Program-made: the position numbers and the translations under genes
The notes under the pieces: generated by a model
What the model was told of the DNA's origin: nothing
The model's input: only the letters and a program-made list of their open reading frames with translations
Databases searched by the model: none
In this document: positions 8,668 to 52,039 of the stretch, one piece after another
How positions within the stretch are numbered: the first letter of the stretch is position 1
Layout: every line of letters starts with the position of its first letter
NCBI RefSeq assembly: GCF_036924525.1
Contig: NZ_JAZHRU010000001.1
Span: forward strand, 1,703,001-1,767,000
DNA: 64,000 nucleotides
Source: Bradyrhizobium sp. AZCC 1719
GTDB taxonomy: Bacteria; Pseudomonadota; Alphaproteobacteria; Rhizobiales; Xanthobacteraceae
Direction: 5' to 3'

Positions 8668-9264
8668 TTAGAGACGCGCCCGTCGCACCCGCACATACAG
8701 GGCACCCTCGCCGCCATGGGCGATATGGGCTTCCTCGAAGCCGACCACCAGGGCGCGGAATTCCGGCAGCCCGAGCCATTGCGGCACCTTGCGGCGCAGC
8801 ACGCCGCGCTCGGACTCAGCACCCACCTTGCCCTTGCCGGTGATGACGAGCACGAAGCTCAGCCCGTCATGATGGGCGCGCTGCAGGAAACCGAACAGCG
8901 CGCGATGCGCGCGCGTCTGCGTCATGCCATGCAGGTCCAGCCTTGCATCGATCTCCTTGCGACCACGCGACAGATGCGACCGCTCGCGGCGGCCGATCGG
9001 CGCCAGCGGCGGTGGTTCCGGCTTTGAAGGCGCAACGATTCGCGCCGGGGCGACGTGCCTCGGTGAAGCGGCGGGTTTCGGAGCGACCTTGTGCTCGGTT
9101 TCCGCCAGAGCAGCCGACGGCTTCGAGGCGCGGTGCCGCTTGCGCAAAGGCTTGACCTGCTTGGCGACGCTCTCCCACAGCGCGCGCTCCTCTTCGCTCA
9201 GGCCGCGCTTGCGGCGCGGCGGCTCCGGCAATTCGGGAATCAACCTCGACGGCCGGCGTTTCAT
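8668..9264 (-). CDS. Smr domain-containing protein
   Basis: The 198-residue protein has a basic, Pro/Ala-rich N-terminal half (MKRRPSRL... to about residue 90) and a C-terminal Smr domain. Domain motifs are IDARLDLHGMTQTRAHRAL, VITGKGK, RGVLRRKVPQWL and the terminal AHGGEGALYVRVRR. Smr domains resemble the MutS2 C-terminus and have nuclease or nucleic-acid binding activity in studied cases; the LDLHGMT and TGKG motifs are the usual active-site region. Its ATG overlaps the mltA stop by 4 bp (ATGA), so it is translated with mltA and timA. Confidence 0.9.
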   Translation of the reverse strand: MKRRPSRLIPELPEPPRRKRGLSEEERALWESVAKQVKPLRKRHRASKPSAALAETEHKVAPKPAASPRHVAPARIVAPSKPEPPPLAPIGRRERSHLSRGRKEIDARLDLHGMTQTRAHRALFGFLQRAHHDGLSFVLVITGKGKVGAESERGVLRRKVPQWLGLPEFRALVVGFEEAHIAHGGEGALYVRVRRARL

Positions 9265-14449: not shown

Positions 14450-15289
14450 TCATTCCGGAAGCCGCTGTCGCTGGCGATCGGTGAACAGTTTTAGCACCGC
14501 CGCCGCGGTTTCCTCGATCGAACGCCGTGTCACGTCGAGCTGCGCCCAACTGAATCTGGCGCTCAGTTTCCGGGCATAGGCTACTTCATCGGCCACCGCC
14601 TGGCGATCGATGTAATCATCATTGGGGGTATCGGCGCCCATGCTCAGCAAGCGATTTTGCCGGACCTGGATCAACCGCTCCGGTGTCGCATGAAGACTGA
14701 CGACCAATGGCTTTTTCAGCGTCTCCAGTTGGTGCGGCAGCGGAATGCCCGGGACCAGCGGCACGTTCGCTGTACGGACGCCGCGGTTGGCGAGATAGAT
14801 CGAAGTCGGCGTCTTCGAGGTGCGGGACACGCCGACGAGAACGACATCCGCCTCTTCCAGGCCTTCGACGTGCTGCCCGTCGTCATGCATCATGGTGTAG
14901 TTCAGGGCGTCGATGCGCTTGAAATATTCGGCGTTCAGAACGTGCTGGGCGCCTACCCTGCCCGTCGTCGCCGCGCCCAGATAGGCCTCGAACAACTGCA
15001 TCACCGGACCAATGATGGAGAGGCTCGGTATGTTGATGTGCCTGCACTTGGCTTCCAGCCGGGCGACCAGATCCTTTTCCAGCAACGTGAAGAGCACGAT
15101 GCCCGGTGCTTCCTCGATCTCGTCGAGCACGCGGTCGAGCTGCTTCTGGCTGCGCACCAGCGGATAGACATGTTCGACCGCCGTCACGTTGGCGTATTGC
15201 GCGGCGACCGCGCGCGCCACCGTGATCAGCGTCTCGCCGGTCGAGTCCGAGACCAGATGAAGATGAAAATAGTTGCCGGTCGTGGGCAC
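14450..15289 (-). CDS. Pyruvate, phosphate dikinase / PEP synthase regulatory protein (PPSR, DUF299)
   Basis: Bifunctional serine/threonine kinase and Pi-dependent phosphorylase that switches PPDK or PEP synthase on and off. The 279-residue protein starts at GTG (15289) as (V)[20 protein letters not shown] and carries the nucleotide loop [18 protein letters not shown]. The family also has MMHDDGQ in the middle. No ATG start is available. It opens the leftward PPSR-maf-coaE-dnaQ operon beside the candidate origin. The Rickettsia gene RP001, which borders oriC, is as I recall from the same family. Confidence 0.93.
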
Positions 15290-15734
15290 CAGAACCCCTG
15301 TGTATTCCTGTGAATCCTGTGGAGCATAACCGAGATGTCGGGCCCTGGATCGCCGCCTGCGGGAAAACCCTTGGTTTCTTCACAGGGCCTCACGCGAGGA
15401 CAAGTCCAACGTCTCGCGACAATGATAGTGAGAAGATGTGGATTTGTCTCTTCATAAGCTGACCACAAAACATCGCAAGCGATTGATGCACGTGGTGTTA
15501 TCAGGACGATCCGGTGTTTGGCCCGAATTGGTGATGGATGTGAACAAGCCTCGCAAAGAGACTGGATGGTTTTGTATGAGTCCAAATCACCGTCACTTAG
15601 ACTCAAACCTAAGATTCTAAAATTATTAGTTTAGAGAAGCGGTGCTTTGCGGATATGTCTTGCGTCCCACGCTGGCGGGGCTTCTTCGCAACGCTTGAGA
15701 AGATCGGAACGTTCCGGAGTTCAGGGCGGCTGCA
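15290..15734. other. Candidate chromosomal replication origin (oriC) between PPSR and hemJ
   Basis: This 445-bp gap has no credible ORF. It holds three degenerate DnaA boxes in one orientation, each two mismatches from TGTGGATAA: TGTGGAGCA (15318-15326), TGTGGATTT (15437-15445) and TGTGAACAA (15539-15547). CcrM-type GANTC sites lie at 15312, 15578, 15600 and 15613. An AT-rich stretch (about 15603-15636, around AAAATTATTAG) could be an unwinding element. In Agrobacterium, Sinorhizobium and Caulobacter oriC lies beside hemE in this neighbourhood, and parS-parAB is close by here. It must also hold the divergent promoters. hemE itself is absent. Confidence 0.45.
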
Positions 15735-16181
15735 ATGTACGAGTGGATCACGATCACGGCCTACCCGTGGATTAAGGCGCTGCATGTGATTGCCGTCATC
15801 TCGTGGATGGCCGGCATGCTCTATTTGCCGCGGCTGTTCGTCTACCATTGCGAAGCCGAGGTCGGATCGAAGCAGTCCGAAACCTTCAAGGTGATGGAGT
15901 GGCGCCTGCTGAAGGTGATCATCAACCCCGCAATGATCATCACCTGGCTGGCCGGGCTCTATTTGGCCTGGAGCGGACATTGGTACACGTCCGGCTGGTT
16001 TCACGCCAAACTGACGCTGGTGCTCATCCTGTCGGGCGTCCACGGCTTTTTTTCCCGCTGGGTTAAGGACTTCGTCGCCGACCGGAATACCCGAAGCCAG
16101 AAATTCTATCGTATTATCAATGAGGTACCAACCGTACTGATGATCTTTATCGTCATCCTGGTGATCGTGAAGCCGTTCTAG
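15735..16181 (+). CDS. hemJ: Protoporphyrinogen IX oxidase HemJ
   Basis: Oxidises protoporphyrinogen IX to protoporphyrin IX in haem synthesis at the inner membrane. The 148-residue protein has four hydrophobic helices and HemJ motifs: WIKALHVIAVISWMAGMLYLPRLFVYH with the essential His, then MEWRLLKVIINPAM, HAKLTLVLILSGVHGFF and KFYRIINEVPTVLMIFIVILVIVKPF. Start ATG 15735. It is the first gene right of the candidate origin and probably read toward rho. It is usually next to hemE in relatives, but hemE is not in the window. Confidence 0.93.
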   Translation: MYEWITITAYPWIKALHVIAVISWMAGMLYLPRLFVYHCEAEVGSKQSETFKVMEWRLLKVIINPAMIITWLAGLYLAWSGHWYTSGWFHAKLTLVLILSGVHGFFSRWVKDFVADRNTRSQKFYRIINEVPTVLMIFIVILVIVKPF

Positions 16182-18009: not shown

Positions 18010-19338
18010 ATGCATCCGCGGGACCAGACCATTTTTGCACTATCGTCGGGCCGGCCACCGAGCGCGATTGCCTTGGTGCGCGTCTCGGGTTCGCAGGCCG
18101 GGAAGCTCGTGACGGCACTAGCTGGCAAATTGCCGTCGCCGCGAATGGCCAGCCGGGCGCTCCTCCATGATGTCGGCCAGCGGCCGATCGACGATGCCGT
18201 GGTGTTGTGGTTTCCGGGTCCGGCCAGCGCGACCGGGGAAGACGTCGCGGAATTTCATGTCCATGGCGGGCGCGCGGTGTTGGACGCGTTGTTCGCTGCG
18301 CTTTCTACGTTCGAAAATGTGCGTCCGGCCGAGCCCGGCGAATTTACCCGGCGCGCCTTCGAGAACGGCAAGCTCGACCTCACCGAAGCCGAAGGACTCG
18401 ACGATCTCATTCATGCCGATACCGATCGGCAGCGGCGCCAGGCGCTGCGTCAATTGAAGGGGCTGCTTGGCGACCGAGCTCGCGACTGGCGTGCGCGGAT
18501 CATCGAAGCATCCGCCCTGATCGAGGCTGGGATCGATTTTTCGGATGAGGGCGACGTGCCGGCCGAATTGATCGCGCCGGCATTGGCGAAGGTCAAAGCG
18601 CTGTCGGCTGAGATCGAGGAAGTCCTGGCGGAGCAGGGGCGGAGTGAGCGGCTTCGCGATGGCCTCGTTGTCGCGATCGCCGGGCCGCCGAATGTCGGCA
18701 AGTCGACGCTGATGAATCAGCTCGCGCGCCGGGAGGTCGCGATCGTCTCGCCGCACGCCGGCACCACGCGCGATGTTATTGAGGTGCAGCTCAATCTCGA
18801 CGGTTATCCGGTGACCGTGATCGATACCGCTGGGATTCGCGAGACGGATGATCCGGTCGAGCAGGAGGGCGTTCGTCGCGCCCGGGCCCGGGCCGCGGAT
18901 GCGGATCTTGTGCTGTGGCTCTTCGACTCGCCGGCAGCGATTGACCACGATTGGGATGCGCCAGTTTGGAGCGTGCGAAACAAAATCGATCTGGAACAGA
19001 TAGGTCGGCCATTGGCCGATCCGTCAGGGCAGGGCGTTTTTCAGATCTCGGCGAGCCGAGGCGATGGCTTGCCCGAGCTGATCGCGGCCCTGGTTGGTTT
19101 CGCGCAAAATTACTTTGGCGGAAGCGAGGCTGGCCTGATCGGCCGAACCCGGCAGCGCTTGCTCTTGCAGGAGACCGCGGCCTCGTTACGACGCTGCGTT
19201 CAGGTAGTCGGGCAGGGCGAGGAGCTGGCGGCGGAAGAATTGCGCATGGCGGCCCATTCGCTGGGGCGGCTCTTGGGGCGCGTGGATGTCGAGCACATTC
19301 TGGACGTTATCTTCCGGGAGTTCTGTGTGGGTAAGTGA
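18010..19338 (+). CDS. mnmE: tRNA-modifying GTPase MnmE
   Basis: With MnmG, MnmE installs the 5-carboxymethylaminomethyl group on wobble uridines. The 442-residue protein starts [27 protein letters not shown], a folate-binding N-domain with FHVHGG and [20 protein letters not shown]. An inserted G domain has G1 GPPNVGKS, G2 HAGTTRD, G3 DTAGI and G4 NKID (in VRNKIDLE). The C-terminus is FCVGK, the conserved CxGK. Start ATG 18010. mnmG follows after a 131-bp spacer carrying two parS sites, so the mnmE-mnmG-rsmG-parA-parB order is conserved. Confidence 0.97.
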
Positions 19339-19354
19339 ACCTTCCCTACCATCC

Positions 19355-19370
19355 TGTTTCACGTGAAACA
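19355..19370. other. parS: parS site 1 (centromere-like ParB binding site)
   Basis: TGTTTCACGTGAAACA is a perfect 16-bp palindrome identical to the consensus parS bound by chromosomal ParB. It lies 16 bp after the mnmE stop in the mnmE-mnmG spacer, about 3.8 kb from parB. Confidence 0.95.
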
Positions 19371-19387
19371 GTTCCATGGACTTGGGA

Positions 19388-19403
19388 TGTTTCACGTGAA
19401 ACA
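19388..19403. other. parS: parS site 2
   Basis: A second perfect copy of TGTTTCACGTGAAACA. Its centre is 33 bp from site 1, about three helical turns, so two ParB dimers could load on the same DNA face. It precedes the mnmG start by 66 bp. Confidence 0.95.
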
Positions 19404-19469
19404 CCCGGCCTCAAACATCCAAGCAATTCTTTCTTCCGCGTTTTCCAACTCCGCGATAGAAGTCGCGGC

Positions 19470-21353
19470 ATGATTTTCCGAGCAGACTCCTTCGACGTCA
19501 TTGTTATTGGCGGCGGCCACGCCGGCTGTGAGGCCGCGAGTGCGGCCGCGCGGATGGGTGCTAAGACGGCCCTGGTGACCCATCGGTTTGCGACCATAGG
19601 GGCGATGTCCTGCAACCCCGCGATCGGAGGTCTCGGCAAGGGTCATCTGGTCCGCGAAGTCGATGCTCTCGATGGCCTGATGGGCCGAGTGGCGGATGCC
19701 GGCGGGATCCAGTTTCGGATGTTGAACCGCCGCAAGGGTCCGGCCGTCCGCGGACCCCGCGCCCAGGCAGATCGCAAGCTTTATGCTGCGGCCATGCAGA
19801 CGGCGATCCGGGAGACCGCCAATCTCAGCGTGATCGAAGGCGAGGCGGACGAGCTGATCGTCTCGAACGGCCGGGTCGCTGGAATTCGCTTGATCGAGGG
19901 AAGGCTGCTTTCGGCGGGCGCCGTGGTCATCACGACCGGGACCTTTTTGCGCGGGCTCATTCATCTCGGCGAGAAGAACTGGCCGGCGGGCCGGGTCGGG
20001 GAGGCGCCTGCGATGGGGCTTTCGGCCTCGTTCGAGCGCGCCGGCTTTACGCTTGGACGGCTGAAGACCGGCACGCCGCCGCGACTCGATGGCACGACCA
20101 TCGACTGGGCCACCGTTGAAATGCAGCCCGGCGACGATCCGCCTGAGCCGTTCTCGGTCATGACCGATCGGATCACGACGCCCCAGATCCAATGCGGGAT
20201 CACCCGGACGACCCCGGCGACCCACGAGGTGATCAGGGCAAATGTGCATCGCTCGCCGATGTATTCAGGGCAGATCAAGAGCAGCGGCCCGCGCTATTGT
20301 CCCTCGATCGAGGACAAGATTGTCCGGTTCGGCGATCGTGATGGCCACCAGATCTTCCTGGAGCCGGAGGGGCTCGACGACTCCACCGTCTACCCAAACG
20401 GCATCTCGACCTCGCTGCCGGAGGAAGTCCAGCTCGCGATCCTCGCGACCATCCCCGGGCTCGAACGGGTGAATATGGTTCGGCCGGGCTATGCCATCGA
20501 ATACGATCACGTCGATCCGCGCGAGTTGGAGCCGACCCTGCAGACCAAGCGCCTGCCGGGTCTCTTCCTGGCCGGGCAGATCAACGGCACGACGGGATAT
20601 GAAGAGGCGGCGGCCCAGGGAATCGTTGCCGGTCTGAACGCTGCCTTGATGGCGGGTGACGCCGATCCGATCGTATTTGATCGCGCTGACGGTTATCTCG
20701 GGGTGATGATCGACGACCTCGTGACCCGCGGGATCACGGAGCCATATCGGATGTTCACCTCGCGGGCCGAGTACCGCCTGACGCTCCGAGCCGACAACGC
20801 AGACCAGCGTCTGACCGACAAGGGCATTGCCTTGGGCTGCGTAGGACAGGCGCGTTCGCAGCGGCATCGCGACAAGATGACCGCGTTGGATGCCGCCAAG
20901 GCGTTGGCCAGGTCGCTGTCGATCACCCCCAACGAAGCCGCAAAGCATGGCTTGGCATTGAACCGGGACGGCCATCGGCGCTCGGCGTTTGAGTTGCTGG
21001 CCTACCCGGAGATCGAGTGGACTGCCCTGCGCGGCATATGGCCGGAGCTCTCGGCCATCGATCCATCGATCGCCATGCATCTCGAGATCGATGCCAAATA
21101 CGATGTCTATCTCAAGCGCCAGACCGCCGACGTCGATGCCTTCCGGCGCGACGAAGGTTTGGTCCTGACCGATATCGATTATGCCGATGTGCCCGGACTC
21201 TCCAACGAAGCGCGCGCCAAGCTCGAAGCGGCGCGGCCGCGGACAGTGGGGCAGGCGGGTCGGCTCGACGGTTTGACGCCCGCGGCGCTGGGTATTCTGG
21301 CGGCCTATCTCCGGCGCGAGGCGCGGCGCAAGAACGCGAAGGCGAGCGCTTAA
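19470..21353 (+). CDS. mnmG: tRNA uridine-5-carboxymethylaminomethyl modification enzyme MnmG (GidA)
   Basis: FAD and folate-dependent partner of MnmE. The 627-residue protein from ATG 19470 starts [23 protein letters not shown], with the FAD GxGxxG loop near residues 13-18. Later come [43 protein letters not shown], the [15 protein letters not shown] segment and the C-terminal helical domain. An in-frame extension reads up to 19335 through both parS sites (encoding VSRET twice) and is not part of the protein, because the family begins at the chosen Met. rsmG follows after 132 bp containing a third parS site. Confidence 0.97.
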
Positions 21354-21358
21354 GAATC

Positions 21359-21374
21359 TGTTTCACGTGAAACG
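21359..21374. other. parS: parS site 3 (one mismatch)
   Basis: TGTTTCACGTGAAACG keeps the 14-bp core GTTTCACGTGAAAC, with one flanking change from the perfect palindrome. It lies 6 bp after the mnmG stop. Confidence 0.9.
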
Positions 21375-21379
21375 TTGAT

Positions 21380-21457
21380 GTAGGATGGGTGGAGCGGAGC
21401 GGTACCCATCAGATGCCTCCACAAAAAAGATGGATATCGCTGCGCTCCACCATCTAC
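21380..21457. repeat. Dispersed inverted repeat, GTAGGATGGGTGGAGCG family
   Basis: The left arm GTAGGATGGGTGGAGCG and the right arm CGCTCCACCATCTAC are nearly complementary. An internal GGTACCCATC sits between them. It occupies the mnmG-rsmG gap just after parS site 3. Confidence 0.6.
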
Positions 21458-21485
21458 GATCGTTGGCTTAGCCGAGACCACCCCA

Positions 21486-22184
21486 ATGGCGAAAGCCGTC
21501 GACCAGATCCCTTCCCCAGTCCTACCATCCGACAAAGCCGCCGCCCTGGCCCTCACCCCCGTTTCACGTGAAACAGAGGTTCGGCTCGATCGCTACGTCG
21601 CTCTGCTTCTGGAGTGGCAGTCCAAGACGAATCTTGTGGCGCCATCGACGCTTCCGAATCTGTGGACCCGTCACATCTCCGATTCGTTGCAACTCCTCGA
21701 CCTGGCGCCGTCCGCAAAAATCTGGGTCGATCTCGGCAGCGGTGGAGGTTTCCCCGGCGTGGTGCTCGCTTGCGCATTGGCGGCGACGCCGGGCGCCAAC
21801 GTCCATTTGGTCGAGCGCAACGCCAAAAAGGCAGCCTTCCTGCGCGAGGCGGTCCGCGTGACATCTGCGGCTGCGATCGTGCATTTGGCAGGAATCGGGG
21901 ATATTGTGGATAGAATCGGTAGCCGCGTCGATTGCGTCACCGCGCGGGCGCTGGCTCCATTACATCAGCTTGTCGGCTTCGCGGAGCCGTTTGTGAGAGA
22001 AGGCGCAAAAGCTTTGTTTCTCAAGGGTCAAGATGTAGAGGCTGAATTGACCGAGGCTACCAAATATTGGAATATTGAACCGCGACTCCATTCCAGCCGA
22101 ACGGGCGGGCACGGCTGGATCGTCGAACTCGATCGCTTCGAGCGGCGCAATCCTTCCGCGATCACACATGGCGATCGGGCATGA
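21486..22184 (+). CDS. rsmG: 16S rRNA (guanine-527-N7)-methyltransferase RsmG (GidB)
   Basis: Methylates G527 of 16S rRNA using SAM. The 232-residue protein has a nonconserved N-terminal 30 residues, then VRLDRYVALLLEWQSKTNLVAPSTLPNLWTRHISDSLQL. The SAM loop is WVDLGSGGGFPGVVLA, followed by HLVERNAKKAAFLREAVR and DCVTARALAPLHQLVGF. Start ATG 21486. parS site 4 lies inside the coding region and encodes VSRET at about residues 27-31. Its stop overlaps the parA ATG by 4 bp (ATGA). Confidence 0.96.
   Translation: MAKAVDQIPSPVLPSDKAAALALTPVSRETEVRLDRYVALLLEWQSKTNLVAPSTLPNLWTRHISDSLQLLDLAPSAKIWVDLGSGGGFPGVVLACALAATPGANVHLVERNAKKAAFLREAVRVTSAAAIVHLAGIGDIVDRIGSRVDCVTARALAPLHQLVGFAEPFVREGAKALFLKGQDVEAELTEATKYWNIEPRLHSSRTGGHGWIVELDRFERRNPSAITHGDRA
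21560..21575. other. parS: parS site 4, inside the rsmG coding sequence
   Basis: CGTTTCACGTGAAACA keeps the 14-bp core with one flanking change. It lies in the poorly conserved N-terminal codons of rsmG, where it costs little protein function. Confidence 0.9.
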
Positions 22185-23030
22185 CCGAATTAGATGAATT
22201 ATATCAAGAGGATAGGGAGCAAACTCCGCCGCCTCATCCACGCATCCTGTCGCTCGCCAACCAGAAGGGTGGCGTCGGCAAGACTACCACAGCGATCAAT
22301 CTTGGCACCGCGCTCGCGGCGATTGGCGAGCGCGTGCTGATCGTCGACCTCGATCCGCAGGGCAACGCTTCGACTGGCCTGGGCATCGATCGCCGCAACC
22401 GCAACTGCTCGACCTACGACGTGCTGATCGGTGAAGCGCCGCTGCGCGACGCGGTGGTTGCCACCGCGGTGCCGCGCCTGCACATCGCGTCCTCGACGAT
22501 GGATCTGTCGGGCCTCGAACTCGAACTCGGCACGACGCCCCGGCCGCGCATTCCGCCTGCGCGATGCAATCGCGGCGTTGAACAAGAACGCGGCGCCGGA
22601 CACCGACTACACCTATGTGCTGATCGATTGTCCGCCGTCGCTTAATCTTCTCACCGTCAACGCGATGGCAGCGTCGGATGCGATCCTGGTGCCGCTGCAG
22701 TGCGAGTTCTTCGCGCTCGAAGGTCTGTCGCAATTGCTGCAGACAGTGGAGCAGGTGCGCTCGACGCTCAATCCGAACCTGTCGATCCACGGCATCGTGC
22801 TGACGATGTTCGACTCGCGCAACAACCTGTCGAACCAGGTGGTCGCCGACGTCAGGCAGTTCATGGGCTCCAAGGTCTACGACACCATGATCCCGCGCAA
22901 CGTCCGCATCTCCGAGGCACCGTCTTACGGCAAGCCGGTCTTGGTCTACGATCTCAAATGCGTCGGCAGCGAAGCCTATCTGAAGCTTGCAACGGAAGTG
23001 ATCCAGCGCGAGCGCGAGCTGAGGCATTAG
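22181..23030 (+). CDS. parA: Chromosome partitioning ATPase ParA, with an apparent +1 frameshift
   Basis: Deviant Walker ATPase that moves ParB-parS complexes on the nucleoid. The first frame (ATG 22181) has the Walker A LANQKGGVGKTTTAIN and VLIVDLDPQGNAS. The second frame carries VLIDCPPSLNLLTVNAM, FALEGLSQLLQT, MFDSRNNLSNQVVADVR and ISEAPSYGKPV. They join at LELELGTTP / GRAFRLRDAIAALN, where a CCCC at 22538-22541 appears to have one C too many. As written, translation would end at 22645 without the Walker B region. Given that ParA is usually required, a sequencing error is the better explanation. Confidence 0.9.
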
Positions 23031-23124: not shown

Positions 23125-23178
23125 ATCACCGAATTCAGTTCCGGAGTAGCTTAAGTGAATCCTAGGGAGTTGGCGGCG

Positions 23179-24063
23179 ATGGCCGACGAAACGCGTTCGC
23201 GACTGGGTCGTGGTCTCGCAAGTCTGATCGGGGACGTCGGCGGCGAGGCCGCGCATGTCGAACGGCCGCGCAACCAGCGCAAGGTACCGATCGAATTTTT
23301 AAAACCAAATCCGCGCAACCCGCGCCGGACGTTTTCCGATGCCGAACTCGGCGAGCTCGCCTCCTCCGTCAAGCAGCACGGCGTGATCCAGCCGATCGTG
23401 GTGCGGCCGGTGAAGGGTGCGCAGGACCGCTATGAGATCATCGCCGGCGAACGGCGCTGGCGCGCGGCGCAGCTTGCCAGCCTGCACGAAGTGCCGATCG
23501 TTCCCATCGATGTCAGCGACAGCGACGCACTCGAGATCATGATCATCGAGAACGTGCAGCGCGAAGACCTCAACGCGATGGAAGAGGCGCAAGGCTATCA
23601 CGCGCTGGCCGACGAATTCAAACGGAGCCAGGAAGACATCGCCAAGGAAGTCGGCAAGAGCCGCAGCCACGTTGCCAACATGATGCGGCTGACAAAGCTG
23701 CCGGCGGAGGTGCAGGCCCTTATCGCGAGCGGCGAATTGTCGGCGGGACACGCCCGCGCGCTGATTAGCGTGCCCGATCCGCTGGCGGCCGCCAAGCGCA
23801 TTGTCGCCGAAGGCCTCAACGTGCGTCAGACCGAGGCGCTCGCCCACGAAGAGGGCGTACCAGAGCGCAAGCCGCAGAAGGCGCGCAGCGGTGGCGGCAA
23901 GACAAAGGATCCCGACACCATCGCGCTGGAGAAACGCGTCAGCGACGCGCTCGGCCTGACCGTGACCGTCAACCACCGCGACCCCGGCGGCACAGTCCAG
24001 ATCAGCTATCGCAATCTCGAGCAACTCGACGAGGTGATGCGGCGGCTGGAGAAGGGGAATTGA
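23179..24063 (+). CDS. parB: Chromosome partitioning protein ParB
   Basis: CTP-dependent clamp that loads at parS. The 294-residue protein from ATG 23179 starts MADETRSRLGRGLASLIGD, the basic ParA-interacting segment. The ParB/Srx domain has the CTP-binding GERRWRAAQL, and NVQREDLNAMEEAQGYHAL with a helix-turn-helix around EDIAKEVGKSRSHVANMMRL follows. The C-terminal dimer region ends VMRRLEKGN. A GTG at 23155 in frame is an alternative start adding eight residues. Four parS sites within 4 kb upstream are its expected binding sites. Confidence 0.95.
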   Translation: MADETRSRLGRGLASLIGDVGGEAAHVERPRNQRKVPIEFLKPNPRNPRRTFSDAELGELASSVKQHGVIQPIVVRPVKGAQDRYEIIAGERRWRAAQLASLHEVPIVPIDVSDSDALEIMIIENVQREDLNAMEEAQGYHALADEFKRSQEDIAKEVGKSRSHVANMMRLTKLPAEVQALIASGELSAGHARALISVPDPLAAAKRIVAEGLNVRQTEALAHEEGVPERKPQKARSGGGKTKDPDTIALEKRVSDALGLTVTVNHRDPGGTVQISYRNLEQLDEVMRRLEKGN

Positions 24064-40910: not shown

Positions 40911-40949
40911 CATAAAAAGAAAGGGGCTCCAGCTTGCGCTGGAGCCCCT
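40911..40949 (-). terminator. Rho-independent terminator for the amtB transcript
   Basis: A perfect 12-bp stem (AGGGGCTCCAGC at 40922-40933 with GCTGGAGCCCCT at 40938-40949) and a 4-base loop are followed on the minus strand by TTCTTTTTAT. It lies about 80 bp after the amtB stop and faces that gene's transcript. Confidence 0.85.
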
Positions 40950-41029
40950 CAACGGTCAGGGCATTGCCGGGTATGTGCCCGAACCGGAGTTGTGGATGCG
41001 ACCCTTTAGGAGATCGTACCCGGGAGAGC

Positions 41030-51964: not shown

Positions 51965-52039
<75 letters not shown>

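Follow-up and report, generated by a model that had tools for sequence, protein, structure and literature searches.

The 64-kb stretch of Bradyrhizobium sp. AZCC 1719 analysed here (64,000 nucleotides; contig NZ_JAZHRU010000001.1, positions 1,703,001 to 1,767,000; hereafter the window) contains four copies of a 16-bp palindrome with a GTTTCACGTGAAAC core around mnmG, upstream of parA and parB. Judged by sequence, these palindromes are the chromosomal parS cluster of the strain, textbook in kind, and the presence of the sites is confirmed. The cluster is very probably the centromere of the chromosome, at which ParB would load as a clamp and from which ParA would drive segregation of the origin region; it adjoins the replication origin (oriC) and is probably not oriC itself. 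What is observed directly is the presence of the sites, their restriction to one place in this genome and their conservation, together with the match of ParB to them and the turn of the GC skew, while ParB binding, sliding and ParA-driven movement are proposed by analogy with homologues. A preliminary description of the window had placed four clustered parS sites on both sides of mnmG, upstream of parAB. Its coordinates stand, with the addition that one of the sites is located within the coding sequence of rsmG.

The parS sites and their conservation

The 14-bp core is intact in all four sites. Two sites have the perfect 16-mer and two differ from it by one outer base (Table 1), as the preliminary description stated, and the 33 bp that it gave for the first two is their centre-to-centre distance, with 17 bp between the 16-mers. 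The cluster spans 2.2 kb and ends 0.6 kb upstream of parAB. When up to three mismatches to the 16-mer are allowed, these four sites are the only ones in the window; dinucleotide shuffles of the window give 0.11 expected, and none of 100 shuffles gave four. The genome is a single contig of 7,200,329 bases, and the genome-wide motif scan that had been proposed was run on it. There are four exact copies of the 14-bp core, none that differ at one position and five that differ at two. The reversed pattern, used as a control in the same genome, occurs at four places with up to two mismatches and at none exactly. All four exact cores are in the window, and there are therefore no equal sites elsewhere in this genome. 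The proposal that the partition centre of the strain lies here is borne out, as the sole exact cores of a 7.2 Mb genome fall within 2.2 kb. A two-mismatch parS-like place within hemJ (15998-16011) is in coding sequence and was taken as chance.

The sites are conserved in the genus and beyond. Exact cores are present in 144 of 146 Bradyrhizobium genomes (137 of 137 of good quality), and the reversed control in 1 of 146. Most of these genomes have three to six exact cores, and a few have one or two. Exact cores are present in all 61 genomes at the family level and in 131 of 149 at the order level. An exact site occurs once or more in 79 of 80 named Bradyrhizobium loci. The remaining locus covers 8.2 kb, and four loci are cut off by a contig end and lack mnmE for that reason. 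The mnmE-mnmG gap contains one or more sites in 76 of the 80 loci, the mnmG-rsmG gap contains a site in 75, and rsmG in 47. All 324 exact sites of these loci are confined to the two gaps or to rsmG. Twenty order-level loci, picked from the 131 positive genomes among the places listed and spread over 13 families, have the same arrangement without exception: a site lies in the interval from the mnmE start to the rsmG end, and parA and parB come next.

The site within rsmG could be anchored in 78 of 79 relatives. Its codons GTT (74 relatives), TCA (72) and GAA (74) are almost invariant, and the codon that follows the middle one is variable at its third base. Near-fixed codons in the site next to a codon that is free at its third base point to a constraint on the DNA, and not on the protein only. 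The middle codon is CGT in 48 relatives and CAT in 22 (loci L042, L045 and L053 are examples), the rest of the core often being intact in the latter. The CAT-centred sites look as if one half-site had been lost and the other kept. The genus offers a test set in which parS sites drift in number and spacing while they hold their place with respect to mnmG and rsmG.

By its specificity residues, the ParB protein encoded next to the cluster is of the parS-reading type. Among named genomes its closest relative is the ParB of Bradyrhizobium murdochi WSM 1741, with 99% identity, in a search that may not cover records of the genome of the window; this agrees with the assignment to Bradyrhizobium. In the PDB, the best sequence match is to Caulobacter ParB (6t1f), aligned over 247 residues, and the specificity positions were mapped through this alignment. 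The four positions read RMKG, which is the parS-type RxxG; 79 of 80 relatives have the same residues, and one has RMRG. At the order level, ParB positions could be parsed in 13 of the 20 loci, with R first in 13 of 13 and G last in 12, the thirteenth being unresolved. All extant ParB orthologues are reported to retain R173 and G201, and about 28% of ParBs to have K or R at position 184 (PMC7383237).

ParB is reported to load at parS as a CTP clamp (PMC7053999). By likeness to homologues, ParB from the adjacent gene would load at each of the four sites as a CTP-dependent clamp and slide onto the flanking DNA, where sliding ParB would build one partition complex over a few kb. Caulobacter ParB is described as spreading over no more than about 2 kb around a single parS, and clustering of sites is thought to raise ParB density near the origin (PMC5815017). 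Four sites in 2.2 kb may produce one continuous ParB domain that extends from mnmE to parB. ParA would move this partition complex, and the origin region would be segregated first.

Table 1. Coordinates of the parS sites, the candidate oriC and the neighbouring genes (window positions).
Feature	Position	Strand	Remarks
ppsR	14450-15289	-	left flank of proposed oriC
ppsR-hemJ gap	15290-15734		candidate oriC
hemJ	15735-16181	+	right flank of proposed oriC
mnmE	18010-19338	+	
parS site 1	19355-19370		perfect 16-mer; mnmE-mnmG gap
parS site 2	19388-19403		perfect 16-mer; mnmE-mnmG gap
mnmG (gidA)	19470-21353	+	start set at ATG; in-frame GTG exists upstream
parS site 3	21359-21374		perfect 14-bp core, last base of 16-mer is G; directly after mnmG stop codon, mnmG-rsmG gap
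rsmG (gidB)	21486-22184	+	
parS site 4	21560-21575		perfect 14-bp core, first base of 16-mer is C; in frame within rsmG
parA	22181-23030	+	one-base frameshift near 22538-22550 in this record
parB	23155-24063	+	ParB_N, HTH_ParB and ParB_C domains

The origin region and other readings of the palindromes

GC skew was sampled in forty evenly spaced stretches of 20 kb and densely over 517 kb, with one 3-kb gap. The cumulative skew of the forty stretches has its floor between 1.6 and 2.0 Mb and its top near 5.4-5.6 Mb, and octamers resembling FtsK orienting polar sequences (KOPS) switch strand near both turning places. The minimum of the dense sample is at window position 8985. Since the skew turns in the window, the window is the origin region, and in this form the earlier statement that it lies at the replication origin holds.

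The sequence makes the ppsR-hemJ gap, about 3.6 kb upstream of parS, the most likely place for oriC. The gap combines a cluster of DnaA-box-like sites, low GC content, divergent flanking genes and conservation in relatives. Gene direction divides at the gap, with ppsR read from the minus strand and the genes hemJ, rho and mnmE from the plus strand. Of all 450-bp stretches in the 64 kb, the one with the lowest GC content begins at 15251 and overlaps the gap. The gap contains five DnaA-box-like sites (up to two mismatches to TTATCCACA) against 1.15 in shuffles, with five or more in 0.65% of 2000 shuffles; stretches of the same size contain 0.46 when averaged over the window. In 73 relatives the same gap has 11.15 such sites per kb against 2.45 after shuffling (one shuffle per relative), and 72 of the 73 have at least three. 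In contrast, the mnmE-mnmG gap of 76 relatives is depleted in them, with 0.63 per kb against 1.96 shuffled. At the order level, 12 of the 20 loci have ppsR and its neighbour, and 56 box-like sites are found there 5' of ppsR against 9.8 shuffled (maximum 18 in 100 shuffles), 16 of the 56 being within one mismatch. The 18 mnmE-mnmG gaps of that level have 11 box-like sites against 12.7 shuffled. The DnaA of the strain retains the motif GGRDHTTV, a motif that is presumably paired with boxes of the TTATCCACA type. As an origin marker, an AT-rich 14-mer from the ppsR-hemJ gap did not hold up: at up to two mismatches, only 13 of 73 relatives have it, and the 20 order-level loci all lack it.

Several observations weigh against a parS cluster that adjoins an oriC in the ppsR-hemJ gap. 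The skew minimum, at a distance of 6 kb to the proposed oriC and 10 kb to parS, has no power to separate them, and the skew within the window is too flat to choose between the two. The dnaA gene is 219 kb away. DnaA boxes with at most one mismatch are at chance level in the window (four against 4.03 by chance, and none in the ppsR-hemJ gap), which is why local enrichment at two mismatches was examined, and near-perfect boxes in this gap of the 73 relatives are at the shuffled level (0.15 against 0.12 per kb). An exact core is absent from 18 of the 149 order-level genomes. Confinement of the sites is not universal, as the Bradyrhizobium genome G132 has five exact cores of which one is on a separate contig (C165), and in the family-level genome G210 distances of 8.2 and 9.5 kb separate three cores (contig C2). 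An order-level genome (G286) is an exception to tight clustering, with three more exact cores on other contigs (C2, C5 and C7). Finally, parA is interrupted in this record.

The palindrome itself has been interpreted differently in the literature. Ori-Finder (2008) proposed the identical palindrome, in the form TGTTTCACG, as the DnaA box of Bradyrhizobiaceae and placed oriC at gidA (mnmG), because the predicted oriCs adjoin gidA and all hold the palindrome (PMC2275245). The interpretation was carried over to Oligotropha carboxidovorans OM5, where a 150-nt origin with four 'tgtttcacg' DnaA boxes is described after Ori-Finder (PMC3091675). Judged from this published description, the four boxes would look like two parS sites. 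The main text of the 2022 update of Ori-Finder mentions neither the motif nor the genus, no correction of the interpretation was found among the top-ranked matches of the open-licence literature, and no paper on parS in Bradyrhizobium was found in that literature. The palindromes do lie near the skew turn and dnaA is away from the origin, yet it is very unlikely that they are paired, family-specific DnaA boxes and that the region beside mnmG is oriC itself. The same 16-mer is reported as a parS bound by Hyphomonas ParB in an electrophoretic mobility shift assay (EMSA; PMC6650430). In this strain parAB adjoin the palindromes and ParB reads RMKG. The spacing of the half-boxes within a site is invariant, as a dimeric reader of palindromes requires. 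The retained DnaA motif also speaks against the DnaA-box interpretation, as does the enrichment of TTATCCACA-like sites in the ppsR-hemJ gap and their depletion in the mnmE-mnmG gap, on the assumption that the motif indicates the type of box recognised. An oriC at the palindromes is not supported, as the mnmE-mnmG gap has no cluster of the boxes expected for this DnaA. The evidence favours parS over DnaA boxes, and the palindromes adjoin oriC but are probably not oriC themselves. The value of the window is corrective in this respect. Origin-prediction software took up the palindrome that marks the centromere as a family-specific DnaA box, and published oriC positions of Bradyrhizobiaceae may therefore be centromeres, some kb off.

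Two further alternatives concern how a parS cluster would work here. The preliminary description took the tight spacing of the sites as a sign of cooperative ParB loading from one helical face, and this part did not hold. The 33 bp between the first two sites correspond to 3.14 turns at 10.5 bp. In the window and the 80 relatives, however, 45 first pairs are less than 70 bp apart with spacings of 25 to 59 bp, and the 23 distinct spacings below 70 bp show no preferred phase for a period of 10.5 bp (R 0.21, p 0.35). The pooled spacings, which are not independent (n 52), are weakly non-uniform (p 0.003), with a mean phase 3.9 bp off. One-face loading is unsupported because the spacing drifts between species, and a helically phased array that loads ParB cooperatively is extremely improbable. 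The second alternative takes the interruption of parA as real. The four sites would then serve ParB and SMC loading only, or the loss would be compensated by another ATPase (one of two MipZ) or by ribosomal frameshifting. The frame break does stand in the record, two full-length MipZ genes are present, and in a whole-genome search with the ParA Pfam family the two parA pieces are the best matches and the next has 60.9 bits. Against this, parA is in one frame in 80 of 80 relatives, both halves are well conserved (97-100% identical to the frame of the nearest relative), and the break coincides with a short run of C in a GC-rich context, a setting in which sequencing errors are likely. The break was compared by pairwise alignment to two relatives; stop-to-stop open reading frames of six relatives gave many spurious frames. 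A truly broken parA is thus unlikely, and an error of the record at the C run is the likeliest explanation.

The two MipZ genes of the strain are located at 4,847,613-4,848,401 and 907,186-907,974, with full-length matches of 398 and 317 bits, and 16 of 60 genomes of the genus have a second MipZ match that exceeds 250 bits. Rfam matches in the window are the small RNA BjrC68 (101.4 bits) at 40914-40995 and a tRNA at 51965-52036.

Dispersed parS repeats in a sister genus

A surprising lead comes from a genus of the same family (g82), outside the window. One of its genomes, G290 (5.3 Mb, completeness 98%, contamination 4%), has 57 exact cores; the 60 others of the family have between 1 and 5. 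The second genome of the genus examined, G347, has 41, of which 13 are on one contig and 28 on others. In G290, the parAB contig (L187) has 12 cores, eleven in the mnmE-mnmG gap and one at rsmG, and the other 45 cores are on other contigs. Both parts of G290 parA are in one frame, and the specificity positions of its ParB, read from alignments, are R-T-K-G. Single sites occur on contigs of 134 and 89 kb, which argues for wide dispersal on draft contigs that are not mapped to the origin.

The dispersed cores are part of a larger element. Of the 45 in G290, 34 were examined; in 31 a recognisable conserved tail of about 100 bp follows the core (well conserved in 29), and 3 have no such tail. Core and tail together form a non-coding repeat of about 110 bp that is mostly intergenic. 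Twenty-nine of the 31 tailed elements are between predicted genes and two overlap greedy calls of open reading frames, and the preceding gene has the same direction in 21 of the 31. The GC content of the repeat-bearing stretches is 0.62-0.70, like that of the parAB contig (0.66). BLAST with the repeat consensus finds at least 21 copies each in G290 and G347. In 39 other relatives it finds no copies, the only matches being two of 21 bases over parS itself. An exact parS is at the repeat match (beside it in one case) in 21 of 21 copies in G347 and in 19 of 21 among the places listed in G290. Six of nine G347 places examined are shared with G290 stretches, with flanks 90-99% identical and one of the six without the tail. 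Since the places in both genomes had been selected for an exact parS, the shared position is evident, but this does not by itself indicate constraint on the core.

Other functions of the repeat were considered. A coding function fails because some copies carry an in-frame stop. An RNA role is unsupported because none of the 15 pairs of the folded consensus has compensatory changes, and Rfam gives no match at the gathering score over the repeat in 10 stretches, with one sub-threshold match that ends at the repeat (L200, 30.1 against 59.8 bits). An exact 34-base pattern of the repeat is present in no viral contig searched, and no paper on dispersed parS repeats was found in the open-licence literature.

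There is an even chance that the dispersed parS of G290 and G347 form a genome-wide ParB-loading network, either like Noc of Bacillus or as a spread-out centromere. Such a network runs against the rule that chromosomal parS stays near the origin, and it does not apply to the genome of the window, where all exact cores are at the origin. In Caulobacter, extra parS sites far from the native cluster are viewed as harmful (PMC5815017). If ParB binds the dispersed sites, this view is challenged, and chromosome-wide roles of ParB become testable in an alphaproteobacterium.

Comparison with known systems

Noc-NBS: The Noc system, with its Noc binding site (NBS), likewise consists of a ParB-family protein and a related palindrome (PMC7383237). 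The NBS is described as differing from parS at positions 1 and 6, and Noc has Q and R at the switching positions where the ParB of this strain has R and G (PMC7383237). The parS core and the RMKG residues speak against a Noc-NBS identity, for which an NBS sequence and a QKKR-type protein would be expected.

Hyphomonas neptunium: This species also has perfect parS sites upstream of parAB near an origin on the hemE side, and the same 16-mer is the one bound by its ParB in EMSA (PMC6650430). It differs in having two sites and hemE at the origin (PMC6650430). In the strain of the window, hemE is at 0.31 Mb (313,797-314,801), 1.4 Mb away from the origin. The gene is present in none of the 80 Bradyrhizobium stretches and adjoins ppsR in 11 of the 12 order-level loci with ppsR in place.

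Caulobacter crescentus: The parS sites of C. crescentus are also clustered, about 8 kb from the origin, with the five strongest within 5 kb, and several of them are likewise within essential or costly genes (PMC5815017). Unlike in Caulobacter, the cluster of this Bradyrhizobium strain packs four sites, each with a perfect 14-bp core, into 2.2 kb, and the candidate oriC is 3.6 kb off.

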